A DNA stretch of 64,000 bases from Synechococcus sp. WH 8109 (GTDB lineage Bacteria > Cyanobacteriota > Cyanobacteriia > PCC-6307 > Cyanobiaceae). The stretch lies in NCBI RefSeq assembly GCF_000161795.2, contig NZ_CP006882.1:1054001-1118000 (forward strand). The letters are read 5' to 3'. The position numbers and the translations under genes were made by a program. Positions 43,812-50,220 of this stretch are shown in pieces (positions within the stretch are counted from its first letter, which is position 1; the number at the start of each line of letters is the position of its first letter). The notes under the pieces were generated by a model that saw nothing but the letters and a program-made list of their open reading frames with translations, did not search any database and was not told the origin of the DNA.

Positions 43812-46328
43812 TCAGTTCAAGGGGGTGCCACCGCTGAGGCGACGCTGTTGTGCGTCCAGAGTCTCGCGCAGCAAAGGATTCTGCTCGAGCTCAGGATCGT
43901 TGTTCAACAGCTCTTGGGCGGCTGTTCGTGCGTCCTCCAGCACAGCACCATCATCGGCAAGGCTGGCCAGGGCCAGATCAGGGAGACCCGACTGACGGGA
44001 CCCCAGCACCTGGCCAGGCCCCCGCAAGCGCAGATCCATCTCGGCGATCTCAAAGCCGTCGGTTGAGCGCACCAGCACATCCAGCCGCTGGCGGGCCAGA
44101 GGATTAGAGCTGCCATTGATCAACAGGCAATGGGAGGCGGCGGCACCACGGCCAACGCGCCCCCGCAACTGATGCAGCTGTGCCAGACCAAAGCGTTCGG
44201 CATGGTCGATCACCATCACGCTGGCTTCGGGCACATCCACCCCCACCTCCACCACCGTGGTCGACACCAGCACCTGGCTCTTGCCCGCAGCGAAATCGGT
44301 CAGTACCGCCTGCTTTTCAGCACTAGAGAGACGCCCATGCAGCAAACCAACGGCCAGATCAGGGAACACCTCCGAGGCCAATTCAGCGTGAACCTCGACG
44401 GCTGAGCGAAGCTCGAGCTTTTCCGACTCGTCTACCAAAGGCAGAACGACATAGGCCCGTTGGCCCAGCTGCACCTCCTCACGGATCAACTCATAGGCCT
44501 TCTCCCGCTTTGCGGCCGTGAGCATGCGGGTGCGAATCGGTGTTCGCCCTGGCGGCAATTCATCAATCTGGCTGACATCCAGATCCCCATGCATCGAAAG
44601 CGCCAGGGTCCGTGGGATCGGTGTTGCCGTCATGGTGAGCAGATGGGGCTGCAAGCCCTTGTTGAGCAGGCGATCCCGTTGATGCACACCGAAACGATGC
44701 TGTTCATCCACCACCACCAGCCCCAGGCGGTTGAAAACGACAGGATCCTCGAGCAAGGCATGGGTGCCCACCAGCACCTTCAGCGAACCGTTGGCCAGGT
44801 CATCCATCAGCTCCCGACGGCGGGGCCGCGGCGTGGATCCCGTCAGCAAGGCGACGCTCACATGGAGCTGCGGCAGCCACTGACAGAGGTTGCGGTAATG
44901 CTGCTCGGCCAACACCTCCGTGGGGGCCATCAGGGCCCCCTGCCAGCCCGAGGCAATGGTGCTGAGCAACGCTGCTATGGCAACCACCGTTTTGCCCGAG
45001 CCGACGTCCCCCTGCACCAGACGGGCCATTGGTTCGTTGCGCGCCAGATCGGCTTCGATCTCCTGAAACACCCGTTGTTGGGCTGCAGTGAAGCGGAAGG
45101 GCAGCAGATCCATGAACTCCCCCACAAGCCCATTGGAACTGGATTGGAGATCCAGGTCTGGGCCCGTCCGGGAGCGCAGCGCCTGGCGTCGGCGCAACAG
45201 ACCGAGCTGCAGGAGCAGAAACTCATCGAACACCAGCCGGCGGCGTCCCCGATCGAGGCTTTCGCGGTCCTTGGGCGCATGCAGGGCCTGCAGGGCCTCC
45301 GAGAGTGCCGGCAGCAGGAATTGCCGCTGTATCGCGGCGGGGAGAGGATCAGGCCACGATGCCGCGAGGGGCAGGACCTGATCGATCAGGCTGCGGAACC
45401 GATCCGCGCCAACCCCTTCGGTGAGGGGATACACCGGGAAAATCCGGCCGATGCTGGGTGATTTGACCGGAGACGAGGGGCTGTCCAGCACCTCGATCAA
45501 CGGATCCTGAAAGGTGATGCCGTAGGGGCCGTCTTTCACCAGACCACTGACGGCCACAGTGGCACCGACGGGGTAAAGACGCTGCTGGCCTTTGAAGTAA
45601 GCCGGAGAACTGAAGCGTTTGCCCGCCAGGAAACGGCTCACCTTCAGGCGACCTGTCGGGTCCTGCAGCTGCAGCTCAATGATGGCGAGGTTGGTGTTCC
45701 GTGGGCTGACGAATCCGTTACAACGGCGAATCGTGGCGACGATCGTGGCTGTTTCCCCCGACACCAGTGCCTCAATGCGGCGCATCGCGGAGTAATCGAC
45801 ATGATCACGGGGGTAATAGCGGAGCAGGTCGCGTACCAGAAGCAGGCCGATCGAAGCCAGCCGTGCCGCGAATTTCGGACCCACACCACGGATCTGTGTG
45901 ATGGGACTGTCGAGCTGCAGTGGTGAGCTGGCACGCTGCTGGGGAGATGCCTGAACCTTCAGGCGTGGCGCTGCCATCGGAGCCGAGGGTTCCAGGCGAT
46001 GGCGCAGCTCATGCAGCCACTGACGGGCATCGGTGACCAAGCGACGGCGGGCAGAATCAGGGAGGTCCGGATAATCGGCAAAGCCGGAGCTGAGCTTGGA
46101 CATGCGCTCACTGACCCCCTGGGGAAAGGGAACGGCCGGAGGCGCTGCGAGTTGCTGCTGCAGAAAGGCGTGAAAGCGCTGTTGGCGACCCTGCAGATTC
46201 TGAAAACCACGGTCGGCCTCCAAACCCAGCGAGCGCTGAATGGGAAGCATCCAGGTGAGAAGCAGCGACAGCTGCTCGCTGGTCAGTCCCCGCTCAGCTG
46301 CTTCGTTGAATCCGATGGGGTCTGCCAA
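43812..46328 (-). CDS. recG: ATP-dependent DNA helicase RecG
   Basis: RecG remodels stalled forks and branched DNA. The 838-residue protein has an N-terminal extension (residues about 1-150), the wedge domain beginning SPITQIRGVGPKFAARLASIG, then helicase motifs: Walker A GDVGSGKTVVA, DEQHRFGV (DExH), TATPIPRTL, and the C-terminal QVLGSRQSGLPDL. The N-terminal extension is common in cyanobacterial RecG. The ATG at 46328 overlaps the upstream gene by 46 bases. Confidence 0.96.
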   Translation of the reverse strand: MADPIGFNEAAERGLTSEQLSLLLTWMLPIQRSLGLEADRGFQNLQGRQQRFHAFLQQQLAAPPAVPFPQGVSERMSKLSSGFADYPDLPDSARRRLVTDARQWLHELRHRLEPSAPMAAPRLKVQASPQQRASSPLQLDSPITQIRGVGPKFAARLASIGLLLVRDLLRYYPRDHVDYSAMRRIEALVSGETATIVATIRRCNGFVSPRNTNLAIIELQLQDPTGRLKVSRFLAGKRFSSPAYFKGQQRLYPVGATVAVSGLVKDGPYGITFQDPLIEVLDSPSSPVKSPSIGRIFPVYPLTEGVGADRFRSLIDQVLPLAASWPDPLPAAIQRQFLLPALSEALQALHAPKDRESLDRGRRRLVFDEFLLLQLGLLRRRQALRSRTGPDLDLQSSSNGLVGEFMDLLPFRFTAAQQRVFQEIEADLARNEPMARLVQGDVGSGKTVVAIAALLSTIASGWQGALMAPTEVLAEQHYRNLCQWLPQLHVSVALLTGSTPRPRRRELMDDLANGSLKVLVGTHALLEDPVVFNRLGLVVVDEQHRFGVHQRDRLLNKGLQPHLLTMTATPIPRTLALSMHGDLDVSQIDELPPGRTPIRTRMLTAAKREKAYELIREEVQLGQRAYVVLPLVDESEKLELRSAVEVHAELASEVFPDLAVGLLHGRLSSAEKQAVLTDFAAGKSQVLVSTTVVEVGVDVPEASVMVIDHAERFGLAQLHQLRGRVGRGAAASHCLLINGSSNPLARQRLDVLVRSTDGFEIAEMDLRLRGPGQVLGSRQSGLPDLALASLADDGAVLEDARTAAQELLNNDPELEQNPLLRETLDAQQRRLSGGTPLN

Positions 46329-47404
46329 TGGGTCCGGGCCTCACGATCCAGGGAGCGACGCTGCCAATGACGCTGCTGCCGCACCATTGTGAGCAGAGCA
46401 TGGTGGTGAGCGCGCAATCGTTTGCGGCACTGACGCAGACGTGGGCTGTCGAACTCCAGATCGTTGCTGCGTAAGAGCACACAGAGCACGTCCATGCCAT
46501 GGTCGAGCTCACCGACGGCCAGAGGGAGGCGCAAACGAAGCACGTTCGTGGCGGTTGGCTGAGTTTCGACCTGTCCCTTTAGGACAGCATCCAGAAGGCT
46601 GATGGGAAGAAGGGTCTGGGCCAGTCCTGACCGCAGCATCTGCACATTCACCGCATGGGACAGGTTGCGAAGGCGTCGCTCAAGCGCCTGATCCATGGCC
46701 TGGATCCAGTGCAACAGCGCATCCGGTTCATTAGGGAGCAAGTGGTCGTTGCCGTCCACCGAAGGATCAAAAGCAGCACCGGGGTCAAGGGGCTGTTGGG
46801 CCTGCTGCATCGCATCACCGGCCAGCTCGAACAGTGAGAGGAGGACATCCAAATCGCCAGAGGATTTGTTTTCTGCGGGTTCAGGGACTGGTTCTTTGAC
46901 GGGATCCTGGGCAGCGGTCCTCGGGGGGGATTCAAGCGGTGAAGCCAAGCTCAACTGAATGGATCCGCTCGGTTCTTCCGGTGGGAGCTCAGACGTGGGT
47001 GGCTCGGGTTCAGGCGCACTCTCCTGGGTCTTGCGACTGAGCTTCTGCAGCATGCTTTTGCTGGCATGGGCCTGCTGGCGCCGTTGCTCCTGCTGCATCT
47101 GCCGCACCAGCTGCATCAGTTGCTCAACTGTGAGCAGAACGCTGCAGCGGTCAATCAAGTCTGTGACCGCTGCATGGAAATTCTGACGGGTCGACTCCGG
47201 CAGCCGGCCAAAACGGGAGGGATCAACCTCACCGAGAAGATTGAACAGTGCCTGACGGGTGGCTCCTTCCAGCAGTTCTCGCAGCACCTGAAGATAAAGA
47301 GCCTGCTCCCTGTACAGGGCGATGGCCCGCAGCCGGCACAACCTTTGAAGGCGTGCCAGCTGTACTGACGGGTCGTAAGCAGGCCTGACGTCCTGGTCGG
47401 ACAA
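46283..47404 (-). CDS. conserved hypothetical protein upstream of recG
   Basis: A 373-residue soluble protein. The N-terminal 130 residues are helical (LARLQRLCRLRAIALYREQ, QALFNLLGEV, VEQLMQLVRQMQQEQRRQQ). Residues about 135-185 form a Pro/Glu-rich linker (PEPEPPTSELPPEEPSGS). The rest is helical and very basic at the end (RHWQRRSLDREARTHW). No enzymatic motif is visible. It sits between tsf and recG in the same direction, overlapping recG by 46 bases. Family not recognised. Confidence 0.75.
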   Translation of the reverse strand: MSDQDVRPAYDPSVQLARLQRLCRLRAIALYREQALYLQVLRELLEGATRQALFNLLGEVDPSRFGRLPESTRQNFHAAVTDLIDRCSVLLTVEQLMQLVRQMQQEQRRQQAHASKSMLQKLSRKTQESAPEPEPPTSELPPEEPSGSIQLSLASPLESPPRTAAQDPVKEPVPEPAENKSSGDLDVLLSLFELAGDAMQQAQQPLDPGAAFDPSVDGNDHLLPNEPDALLHWIQAMDQALERRLRNLSHAVNVQMLRSGLAQTLLPISLLDAVLKGQVETQPTATNVLRLRLPLAVGELDHGMDVLCVLLRSNDLEFDSPRLRQCRKRLRAHHHALLTMVRQQRHWQRRSLDREARTHWQTPSDSTKQLSGD

Positions 47405-47409
47405 GGGAA

Positions 47410-48072
47410 TCAGCCGGCGTTCTGCATGGACGCCACTTCAGCAGCGAAATCGTTGTCTTCCACCTCGATGCCCTCGCCCAGGGTGTAGCGGGTGAAGCGA
47501 CGAACTTTCACGTTCTCGCCGATCTTGCCGGCAGTTTGCTTCACGAGGTCAGCAACGGTGATGGAGCTGTCCTTGATGAAGGGCTGCTCCATGAGGGCGA
47601 GTTCCTTGAGCCGCTTGCCGATGCGGCCCTCAACGATCTTTTCCTTCATCTGCTCAGGCTTGCCTTCGAGATCGTCACGGCCCATCTCGATCGCCTTTTC
47701 CCGCTCACGGATTTCGTCGGGAATCTCGTCGGTGGTGACGTACTCAACGTTGGGGCATGCCGCCACCTGCATGGAGACATCACGTAGTAGCGACTGGAAC
47801 ATGTCGCCCCGTGCCACGAAGTCAGTTTCGCAGTTCACCTCAACCAGCACACCCACGCGAGCACCGGTGTGGATGTAGCTGCCGATGGCACCCTCGGCGG
47901 CGGTGCGGCCGGATTTTTTTTCAGCGCTGGCGATGCCTTTCTGGCGAAGCCACTCAACGGCCTTGTTGGCATCGCCTTCTGTGGCGGCCAGGGCCTTTTT
48001 GCAATCCATCATCCCCGCGCCGGTCTTGTCGCGCAGTTCTTTGACAAGCTTGGCGGATACGGCAGCAGCCAT
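47410..48072 (-). CDS. tsf: translation elongation factor Ts
   Basis: EF-Ts exchanges GDP for GTP on EF-Tu. From the ATG at 48072 the protein has 220 residues, the cyanobacterial length. It shows the UBA-like start [23 protein letters not shown] and the core motif [12 protein letters not shown]. The frame extends to 48120 without homology. It follows rpsB by 84 bases, the usual bacterial order. Confidence 0.97.
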
Positions 48073-48156
48073 CGGTCGGAGCAGTGAGAAAGGAAATTGA
48101 ATCGCCGCCGATTGCCTCATTGGAATCAGCGGCGTGAACTTAGCGGTGAGAGGAGA

Positions 48157-48873
48157 TCAGCCTTCGCTGTCGCCACCACGCTGATCGTTGGAGCCGTGGC
48201 GGCCCTCATTGATCGCATCGGCCAAACGGCCCAGGATCAGTTGCACTGAACGAACGGCGTCGTCGTTGCAGGGAATCGGCACCTCACAGAGATCCGGATC
48301 GCAGTTGGTGTCCAGCATGGAAACCAAGGGGATGTCGAGCTTGCGGGCTTCGAGCACCGCATTCGACTCACGACGCTGGTCCACCAGGACCACAACATCA
48401 GGAAGGCGACGCATGTTCTTGAGGCCACCCAGATACTTCTGGAGACGCTCGAGTTCGCGCCGCAGCACCGCACCTTCTTTCTTGGGGCGCATGGCGATGG
48501 CGCCGCTGGACTCCATCCGCTCAAGATCCTTGAGACGGTCGATCCGGGCCTTCATGGTGGTCCAGTTGGTGAGCATCCCGCCCAACCAGCGCTGGTTCAC
48601 GTAGGACGCTCCACAGCGGGCGGCTTCCAGCGCCACAACTTCAGAGGCTTGCTTCTTGGTGCCAACGAAGAGGAAACGCTTGCCGCTGCGTGCCGCAGAA
48701 CGGGTCCACTTGTAGGCGTTGTTCATGCAGACGGCTGTCTGCACAAGGTCAATGATGTGAACGCCGTTGCGCGCGCAATAGATGTAGCGCGACATCTTGG
48801 GGTTCCAACGACGGGTCTGGTGCCCAAAGTGGGCACCAGCCTCCATCATCTCGGCGAGGGTGACGACAGCCAT
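48157..48873 (-). CDS. rpsB: 30S ribosomal protein S2
   Basis: Structural protein of the small subunit. The 238-residue protein starts [27 protein letters not shown] and contains the S2 signatures [12 protein letters not shown] and the C-terminal [25 protein letters not shown]. The start is clear. It is co-directional with tsf. A structured leader precedes it. Confidence 0.98.
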
Positions 48874-48970
48874 GGTTTAAGGGTTTCGGGTTCGCCTCCA
48901 CCTGCCAGGGACCTGAACAACCAGCAGGAGCTGGTCTCACGGTGCACCCGAAACGGGCAGGTGTGCGGAG
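48874..48970 (-). promoter_or_regulatory. candidate structured leader of rpsB-tsf
   Basis: The transcript upstream of the rpsB ATG can form a hairpin at 48920-48935 (ACCAGC/GCTGGT). It can also form two long-range pairings: 48883-48891 with 48946-48954 (9 bp) and 48899-48906 with 48956-48963 (8 bp). The two pairings cross, so they would form a pseudoknot or alternate. A GGAGG lies at 48895-48899, within this fold and about 21 bases from the ATG. S2 autoregulation is known in other bacteria. That this leader does it is inference. Confidence 0.5.
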
Positions 48971-49003
48971 TGAAAGGACCTACTGAAGGTATCAAAACGT
49001 CGA

Positions 49004-49936
49004 TCAGCGAAGCCCTGCCGCTCTGGCTTCACGGAACAGGGCACGCACACCGATGCGATTGAGGGGCAAACGAAGCAGCTCCATCGCCGTTCCGGGATAG
49101 CCATGCCGGATCAGCCAACGGAGCAACGGGCGAAGGCTGGAGGGATTGATCAGCCCACCGAGGGTGAGCACTTCCCAAAGGATGCGATGGAACCAGGTGA
49201 ACTGGATGATCAACCGCACCCGCCTGGTTGGATGTTTGCGGTAAAAGACAAGCCCCATACGGGCCCGTTCACCCTCCACTTCCACAAGTCGTGGGATCTG
49301 ATCGAGGCTCAGGGCGGGGTGCCAGTGATAACCAACAGCGTCCGGACACTTCACCAACTCAACCCCCATCCGCCGCAGACGCTCACCCAGTTCCAGGTCC
49401 TCCCAGCCATAGAGGCGGAAACCGGTGTCAAACAGGCCTGAGCGCTCCAGCACCTCCCGATCGATGGCCACATTGCCGGTGGCGAAATAAGCCCAGGACA
49501 AGTCACGTAATTTGTGGCGCTCCGAGCAGGGTGCTTCGAAGTTGGCGGTGTTGATGACAGCGCCGTAGGTGAAGCAGAGCCGATCACCACGCCGTTGCCA
49601 GCACTGCTGCAACGCCCGTGCATGGGTGGCCAGAAAGGTTTCTGTGACCACCAGATCGCTGTCTATGAAGACGATCACATCGCCACGGGCATGATCCACA
49701 CCGCGGTTCCGGCCCTCCGCAGGACCACCGTGCGCCTGCTCGATCAGGCGCACGTGGGGAAAACGATGGGACTGCTCGCTCAGCCATGACGGCGTTCCAT
49801 CGGTGGAACCGTCGTCGACCACAACAACCTCGTAGTCCTGAAGAGCTCCAGCAAGCTGCTGATCTTCCAGTGCCGAGAGGCATTTCTCGAGGATCGGGCG
49901 TCGGTTGTAGGTCGGAATAACGACGCTGACGAACAT
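49004..49936 (-). CDS. family 2 glycosyltransferase
   Basis: A 310-residue GT-A fold enzyme: SVVIPTYNRRPILEKCL at the start, VVVVDDGSTDGTP, the DxD-type metal site FIDSDLV near residue 94, and GWEDLELGERLRRMG, a C-terminal ED motif seen in polymerising or side-chain transferases. It is predicted to be cytoplasmic or membrane-peripheral. The acceptor is unknown. Its position is downstream of a tiny basic-protein gene and its terminator. Confidence 0.88.
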   Translation of the reverse strand: MFVSVVIPTYNRRPILEKCLSALEDQQLAGALQDYEVVVVDDGSTDGTPSWLSEQSHRFPHVRLIEQAHGGPAEGRNRGVDHARGDVIVFIDSDLVVTETFLATHARALQQCWQRRGDRLCFTYGAVINTANFEAPCSERHKLRDLSWAYFATGNVAIDREVLERSGLFDTGFRLYGWEDLELGERLRRMGVELVKCPDAVGYHWHPALSLDQIPRLVEVEGERARMGLVFYRKHPTRRVRLIIQFTWFHRILWEVLTLGGLINPSSLRPLLRWLIRHGYPGTAMELLRLPLNRIGVRALFREARAAGLR

Positions 49937-49977
49937 CGCGACGGCCGATGCAAATGGCCACCCACCCTACGAACAAC

Positions 49978-50010
49978 AAAAAAGGGGCTCGGAGGCCCCC
50001 CTTTTTTATG
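49978..50010 (-). terminator. bidirectional-looking rho-independent terminator
   Basis: A-run, GGGGCT / GGCCCC stem around 49984-49999, then a T-run (50002-50007). Read on the minus strand it follows the stop of the 51-residue gene (50029) and ends in TTTTTTGTTG, so it terminates that transcript. Confidence 0.8.
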
Positions 50011-50028: not shown

Positions 50029-50184
50029 TCAGTCGGCGGCACCACCGTTGTTGGCAGTTCCGGTCACACCGTTACCAGCGCCTTCACCACGGCCATCGTT
50101 GCGCATCTTGCGCTTCTTGAACTTGCGCGCATATGCGCGGTTCCGCTCCTGCTTTTCTTTCTTCAGGTTTCTGCGCTTGGCCAT
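50029..50184 (-). CDS. small highly basic protein (51 residues)
   Basis: ATG at 50184 to TGA at 50029. The N-terminal 28 residues are nearly all charged (MAKRRNLKKEKQERNRAYAR, then KFKKRKMR), and the tail is Gly/Asn/Ala-rich. The charge pattern suggests RNA or ribosome binding. It resembles small conserved proteins of cyanobacteria that I have seen without a function. It has its own terminator downstream, supporting a real, separately expressed gene. Confidence 0.75.
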   Translation of the reverse strand: MAKRRNLKKEKQERNRAYARKFKKRKMRNDGRGEGAGNGVTGTANNGGAAD

Positions 50185-50220
50185 GCGGAACTGCGGGCTC
50201 TGGTATCAAATTTCATCCTA

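Follow-up and report, generated by a model that had tools for sequence, protein, structure and literature searches.

The rpsB Locus and Its Leader

The window analysed here, a 64,000-nt stretch of DNA from the marine cyanobacterium Synechococcus sp. WH 8109, carries on its minus strand the gene for ribosomal protein S2 (rpsB), flanked by the tsf reading frame downstream and a glycosyltransferase-like frame upstream (Table 1). The 130-nt gap that separates the latter frame from rpsB (49003 to 48874, minus strand) constitutes the rpsB leader. Read 5′ to 3′, the leader RNA passes through the first strand of a helix termed P1 (CACCTGCC), a single C, the first strand of a pseudoknot helix termed PK (GTTTCGGGT), a hairpin, the second strand of P1 (GGCAGGTG), the linker GAGGCGA, the second strand of PK (ACCCGAAAC), and finally CCTTAAACC before the ATG. 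Farther upstream, a small basic reading frame at 50030–50185 (minus strand) reads as MAKRRNLKKEKQERNRAYARKFKKRK..., and a terminator-like GC-rich inverted repeat with a T-run lies at 49975–50010, after this frame and just upstream of the glycosyltransferase-like one.

Table 1. Features of the rpsB locus and leader, in window coordinates
Feature	Position	Strand	Basis or remark
rpsB, ribosomal protein S2 CDS	48157..48873	minus	ATG 48873-48871; ORF list and S2 protein matches
tsf reading frame	47410..48120	minus	downstream of rpsB; named from translation
Glycosyltransferase-like reading frame	49004..49936	minus	upstream of rpsB; named from translation
-10-like hexamer TACCTT	48986..48991	minus	predicted start ~48977-48981 (inferred), upstream of both helices
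P1 5′ strand CACCUGCC	48956..48963	minus	perfect 8-bp complement of 48899-48906
Pseudoknot (PK) 5′ strand GUUUCGGGU	48946..48954	minus	perfect 9-bp complement of 48883-48891
Variable hairpin core (P3)	48920..48935	minus	between PK 5′ strand and P1 3′ strand; sequence; in minimum-energy fold
P1 3′ strand GGCAGGUG	48899..48906	minus	perfect 8-bp complement of 48956-48963
Single-stranded linker GAGGCGA	48892..48898	minus	P1 3′ strand to PK 3′ strand; conserved
Pseudoknot (PK) 3′ strand ACCCGAAAC	48883..48891	minus	perfect 9-bp complement of 48946-48954; ends 9 nt before ATG

A first-pass annotation of this DNA had proposed two perfect pairings, of 9 and 8 bp, that cross each other around a hairpin. 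Both the coordinates and the perfection of the pairings proved exact, and the hairpin was found as P3 (minus strand, ACCAGC-TCCT-GCTGGT), which differs widely in length and sequence among relatives. The GGAGG described there as touching the second pairing (48899–48895, minus strand) overlaps the 8-bp helix by one base, and most of it is contained in the linker GAGGCGA. Its end lies 21 nt ahead of the ATG, so this GGAGG is not a normally spaced Shine–Dalgarno sequence. With only one nucleotide linking P1 to a PK of 9 bp, space is tight, and the 9 + 8 pairs need not all form at the same time.

The two helices are the only perfect ones of at least 7 bp within 48874–48970. Chance had been judged an unlikely origin for them, and the frequencies obtained agree: when the 97-nt stretch was shuffled 20000 times with its dinucleotides preserved, perfect helices of 9 and 8 bp that cross each other arose in 3 cases, and among 3196 segments of 97 nt taken from the 64 kb they occur in two, one of which is the rpsB leader. 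The other such segment, 46221–46317, overlaps the 3′ end of the 46283..47404 reading frame. Plain folding energy is ordinary (z −0.54, minus strand), as computed with a folding program that cannot score pseudoknots.

The first-pass annotation had also raised the possibility of a transcription start downstream of 48950, which would speak against the structure; a conserved −10-like box instead sits upstream of both helices, and transcription would be expected to begin ahead of them. The pattern TAnnnT, starting 23–28 nt upstream of the GCACA block, is present in 83 of 84 picocyanobacterial leaders and 53 of 56 others (136/140), compared with means of 2.6 and 7.1 and maxima of 9 and 26, respectively, in control bands. 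A sigma-70 consensus scan of the window leader found no promoter.

Conservation of the Leader across Cyanobacteria

Relatives of the leader were gathered through a protein search, which led to 80 rpsB loci from Synechococcus, Prochlorococcus, Cyanobium, and their kin (S2 proteins 93–100% identical), and through a phylum-wide sample of 146 genomes, in 145 of which S2 was found. Of 150 loci upstream of rpsB, 140 show the full leader pattern; the ten exceptions comprise two whose leader is cut by a contig end (L004 and L009), two variants (L133 and L135), and six outside the window's class. Within that class or closer (L081–L144), 62 of 64 genomes match, and the remaining two are the variants L133 and L135, in which both P1 and PK are altered. 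PK comprises at least 5 bp in all 140 matched leaders and is a perfect 9-bp helix in 83 of the 84 picocyanobacterial ones, where picocyanobacterial denotes loci L001–L086 (close S2 relatives and same-family genomes). Outside this group the consensus reads CGCACATCCAGG-N-TTTCGGGTGTTTC...CCTGGATGGAGGNTNAACCCGAA..AGGAG..ATG. When run on the window's genome, a covariance model (R1) built from the alignment of these leaders (A1, described below) picked out the rpsB leader as the sole strong hit (E 1.1e-13); the next best had an E-value of 0.59.

Covariation of P1 and PK

Alignment A1, constructed with MAFFT, holds 69 of 81 distinct leaders chosen from the 140, namely those of at most 110 nt; the other 12 were omitted to limit the number of sequences in the alignment. 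P1 is paired in 97.8% of A1 cells and shows changes on both sides at seven of its eight pairs, so the covariation that the first-pass annotation had suggested looking for among relatives is present. PK is paired in 98.6% of cells, a figure slightly lowered by the mis-registered but retained leader L087, with two-sided change at none of seven pairs. For the whole structure, 138 cells carry two-sided change compared with 30.5 in shuffles, and none of 500 shuffles reached the observed value; these are counts of cells in an alignment with many close relatives and do not equal counts of events. When the partners were slid by 1–3 columns, pairing in A1 fell from 98.2% to 22–52% (at most 52.2%). The GGAGG columns are nearly invariant in A1. 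The G after CGGGT, outside both helices, is invariant as well.

The PK helix is nearly invariant within Cyanobacteria, and its pairs are swapped in deep branches and in E. coli. Among 13 distant leaders, five possess a PK of at least 5 bp with changed pairs. In L133 (CUACGGGU/ACCCGUAG) a U-A pair is swapped to A-U, and in L135 (UGGGU/ACCCA) C-G becomes U-A. A C-G to G-C change is observed in L146 (GGGGGU/ACCCCC), where PK fits with the second-ranked P1 only, in L175 (GGGGU/ACCCC), and in E. coli (UUGGGGU/ACCCCAA). Shuffling of the inner region reproduced the same PK string 1 time per 1000 for L133, 36 for E. coli, 77 for L175, 212 for L146, and 251 for L135. Only two or three of these five leaders are convincing on their own, and most weight falls on L133 and E. 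coli, whose shuffle counts are lowest. PK reaches at most 4 bp in the remaining eight of the 13 distant leaders and is therefore not universal in the deep branches sampled. Taken as comparative evidence, the class-wide pattern and the compensatory changes indicate that the rpsB mRNA of this marine cyanobacterium opens with a genuine RNA pseudoknot that has been conserved in evolution.

Relation to the Published rpsB Motif and the E. coli Leader

By position and layout, the window leader belongs to the rpsB motif described by Meyer et al. in 2009 (PMC2704228) and is thus of a kind already known. As characterized there, the motif consists of P1, of P2 and P3, both variable, and of a pseudoknot in which J2-3 pairs with a 3′ extension. 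It precedes rpsB in most Alpha- and Gammaproteobacteria, some other Proteobacteria, Cyanobacteria, and some Firmicutes; the pseudoknot is reported in all of these taxa, and cyanobacterial members have a short P2 or none. Several features of the window leader agree with this description (PMC2704228): it lies directly upstream of rpsB, as in the 140 matching loci; its P1 is backed by covariation; its PK joins the junction strand to the 3′ extension after P1; and a single nucleotide between P1 and the PK 5′ strand, with a P3 of varied length thereafter, corresponds to the cyanobacterial form, in which P2 is absent or of at most 3 bp. Two features differ. PK comprises 9 bp in the window rather than the five pairs given for members outside Firmicutes (PMC2704228), and picocyanobacterial members do not carry a Shine–Dalgarno sequence after PK.

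The Rfam family RF01815, named rpsB, was equated with this motif by name and place, and its consensus has a GGNGGNUUAACC-type linker like that of the window. A search of the window against Rfam 15 gave no match to RF01815 or RF00127 (t44) at E up to 5. None of 10 relatives reached the gathering cutoff of RF01815 (40 bits) or of RF00127 (44 bits; best 25.7 bits). Sub-threshold matches to RF01815 fell on the same leader element in L091, L110, L093, and L141 (the highest, at 31.4 bits), as did one to RF00127 in L025 (24.6 bits). Since the RF01815 cutoff was missed, the leader is assigned to the published motif and not to the Rfam entry by score. The matches that the window did give in Rfam were all put down to chance, and microRNA-type matches on L089 and others were likewise taken as chance.

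The E. coli rpsB–tsf leader (t44; RF00127, tff b4414) is a relative of this element with a reported response to S2. Model R1 scored it at 22 bits within 22 kb of E. coli sequence. As in the window, it possesses P1 (CACGUAUC/GAUACGUG) followed by a GAGG linker and AACCCC, and the 7-bp PK given above can form. The differences concern spacing: in E. coli the 5′ strand of PK is set 22 nt beyond P1, within a larger hairpin region, vs 1–3 nt beyond it in cyanobacteria, and between PK and the ATG lie 22 nt that include a purine-rich GAGG, compared with 9 nt in the window. In E. coli, S2 represses rpsB–tsf through the 5′ UTR, with S1 needed for good repression (PMC10931766, section 2.2), and the mechanism is described as unclear because the ribosome binding site lies outside the operator (PMC10931766).

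Among earlier predictions, cluster 394 of Voss et al. 2009 (PMC2662882) is a structured 5′ element labeled as a possible rps2 5′ UTR in two of four cyanobacteria; its entry differs from the present description in giving no pseudoknot or mechanism. The leaders of S15 (rpsO) and S4 (alpha operon) are likewise pseudoknots bound by a ribosomal protein that controls its own mRNA (PMC10931766), although protein, fold, and genes are different and the likeness is one of working only. No S2 leader and no cyanobacteria are listed among the 20 new leaders of PMC7247131. The literature searched, which covered few subscription papers, yielded no report of cyanobacterial S2 binding, leader probing, or a measured start.

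Shine–Dalgarno Loss in Picocyanobacteria

A GGAG, AGGA, or GAGG follows PK in 55 of 56 leaders outside the picocyanobacteria (L087–L144) and in none of the 84 picocyanobacterial ones (L001–L086); the single exception among the former, L124, was scored as lacking a Shine–Dalgarno sequence only because its GGAG overlaps PK. The distance from the end of PK to the ATG has a median of 15 nt outside the picocyanobacteria and 10 nt within them. The loci are not independent, and the difference may reflect a single event on the tree. This loss was not met in the literature searched, where no search was aimed at it alone.

With no Shine–Dalgarno sequence after PK and PK nearer the ATG, masking of the start region would be the likeliest mode of action in picocyanobacteria. 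We tentatively propose, as a possibility short of an even chance, that in this group the leader has become fused with the ribosome binding site, such that the longer PK masks the start region and S2 acts by direct occlusion. Such a mode would be unlike that of E. coli, whose ribosome binding site is placed outside the operator (PMC10931766). The Shine–Dalgarno-less leaders offer a simple system in which to study the block of initiation by S2, a step considered mechanistically unclear in PMC10931766.

Proposed Function and Alternatives

The window leader is very probably an rpsB motif that acts as a cis-regulatory leader of the rpsB–tsf mRNA, with feedback by S2 through the pseudoknot. We infer S2 as the ligand in Cyanobacteria by analogy, and the suggestion in the first-pass annotation that S2 might control rpsB–tsf gains support from the position of the element and from the architecture common to the E. 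coli leader and the published motif. In the proposed scheme, the leader would fold into P1 and PK, with the variable P3 lying between them. Any S2 made beyond what the 30S subunits take up would stay free and, perhaps together with S1 as in E. coli, would bind and stabilize the pseudoknot; the stabilized pseudoknot would block initiation at rpsB, and output of S2 and EF-Ts would drop. In picocyanobacteria, the PK helix itself might occlude the start region. An S2 leader common to Proteobacteria and Cyanobacteria implies that the feedback element is probably old.

The alternative that survives best, though unlikely, is that the element binds a partner other than S2, such as S1, an RNase, or the 30S subunit itself, for which it would serve as a standby site or as an element that promotes initiation, and that it aids translation or mRNA stability instead of mediating feedback. 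The 84 picocyanobacterial leaders without a Shine–Dalgarno sequence after PK nonetheless keep the loop GGAGG, which could recruit 30S, and the requirement for S1 in E. coli (PMC10931766) also fits such a partner. Against it, the element is tied to rpsB, where its only strong genomic site lies, and its architecture is common to the E. coli leader, which responds to S2.

Far less probable is a two-state switch in which P1 and PK alternate with another hairpin, for example between CAYY in the P1 5′ strand and GGUG at the end of the PK 5′ strand (A1 columns 4–7 and 21–24; window 48963–48960 and 48948–48945), whose formation would exclude both helices. This hairpin can pair in all 69 A1 leaders, but its pairability is explained by the fixation of its columns by P1 and PK: none of its four pairs shows two-sided change, and its score is equalled by shuffles. 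Moreover, a 4-bp stem around a loop of 13 nt is a weak structure, and the hairpin was not seen in the E. coli leader sequence. Of the pseudoknot or switch envisaged in the first-pass annotation, the pseudoknot thus stands, on class-wide conservation, P1 covariation, and the deep-lineage PK swaps, and the switch, as a second stable fold, finds no support. Finally, chance complementarity in a GC-rich leader, conserved through DNA-level elements such as a promoter or operator, can be set aside: the near invariance of the PK strands in Cyanobacteria and the ordinary folding-energy z-score would suit it, but the swapped PK pairs speak against it, and for P1 it has already been refuted by the rarity of crossing helices in shuffles and by the two-sided changes in that helix.

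A Different rpsB Leader in Family f24

Family f24 (L147 and L181–L204), which lies outside the window's class, has a conserved rpsB leader of a different kind. Rfam searches with five of its loci returned no match at E up to 1, and the element may represent either a new leader or a divergent form of the S2 leader. It follows the pattern GATAGG-N4-9-CCTAG...CCCGTAGTAC in 23 of 25 loci, in which both end blocks are invariant and a variable stem follows CCCTAGT (for example, TTTTTAT/ATAAAAA in L204, TCCG/CGGA in L193).
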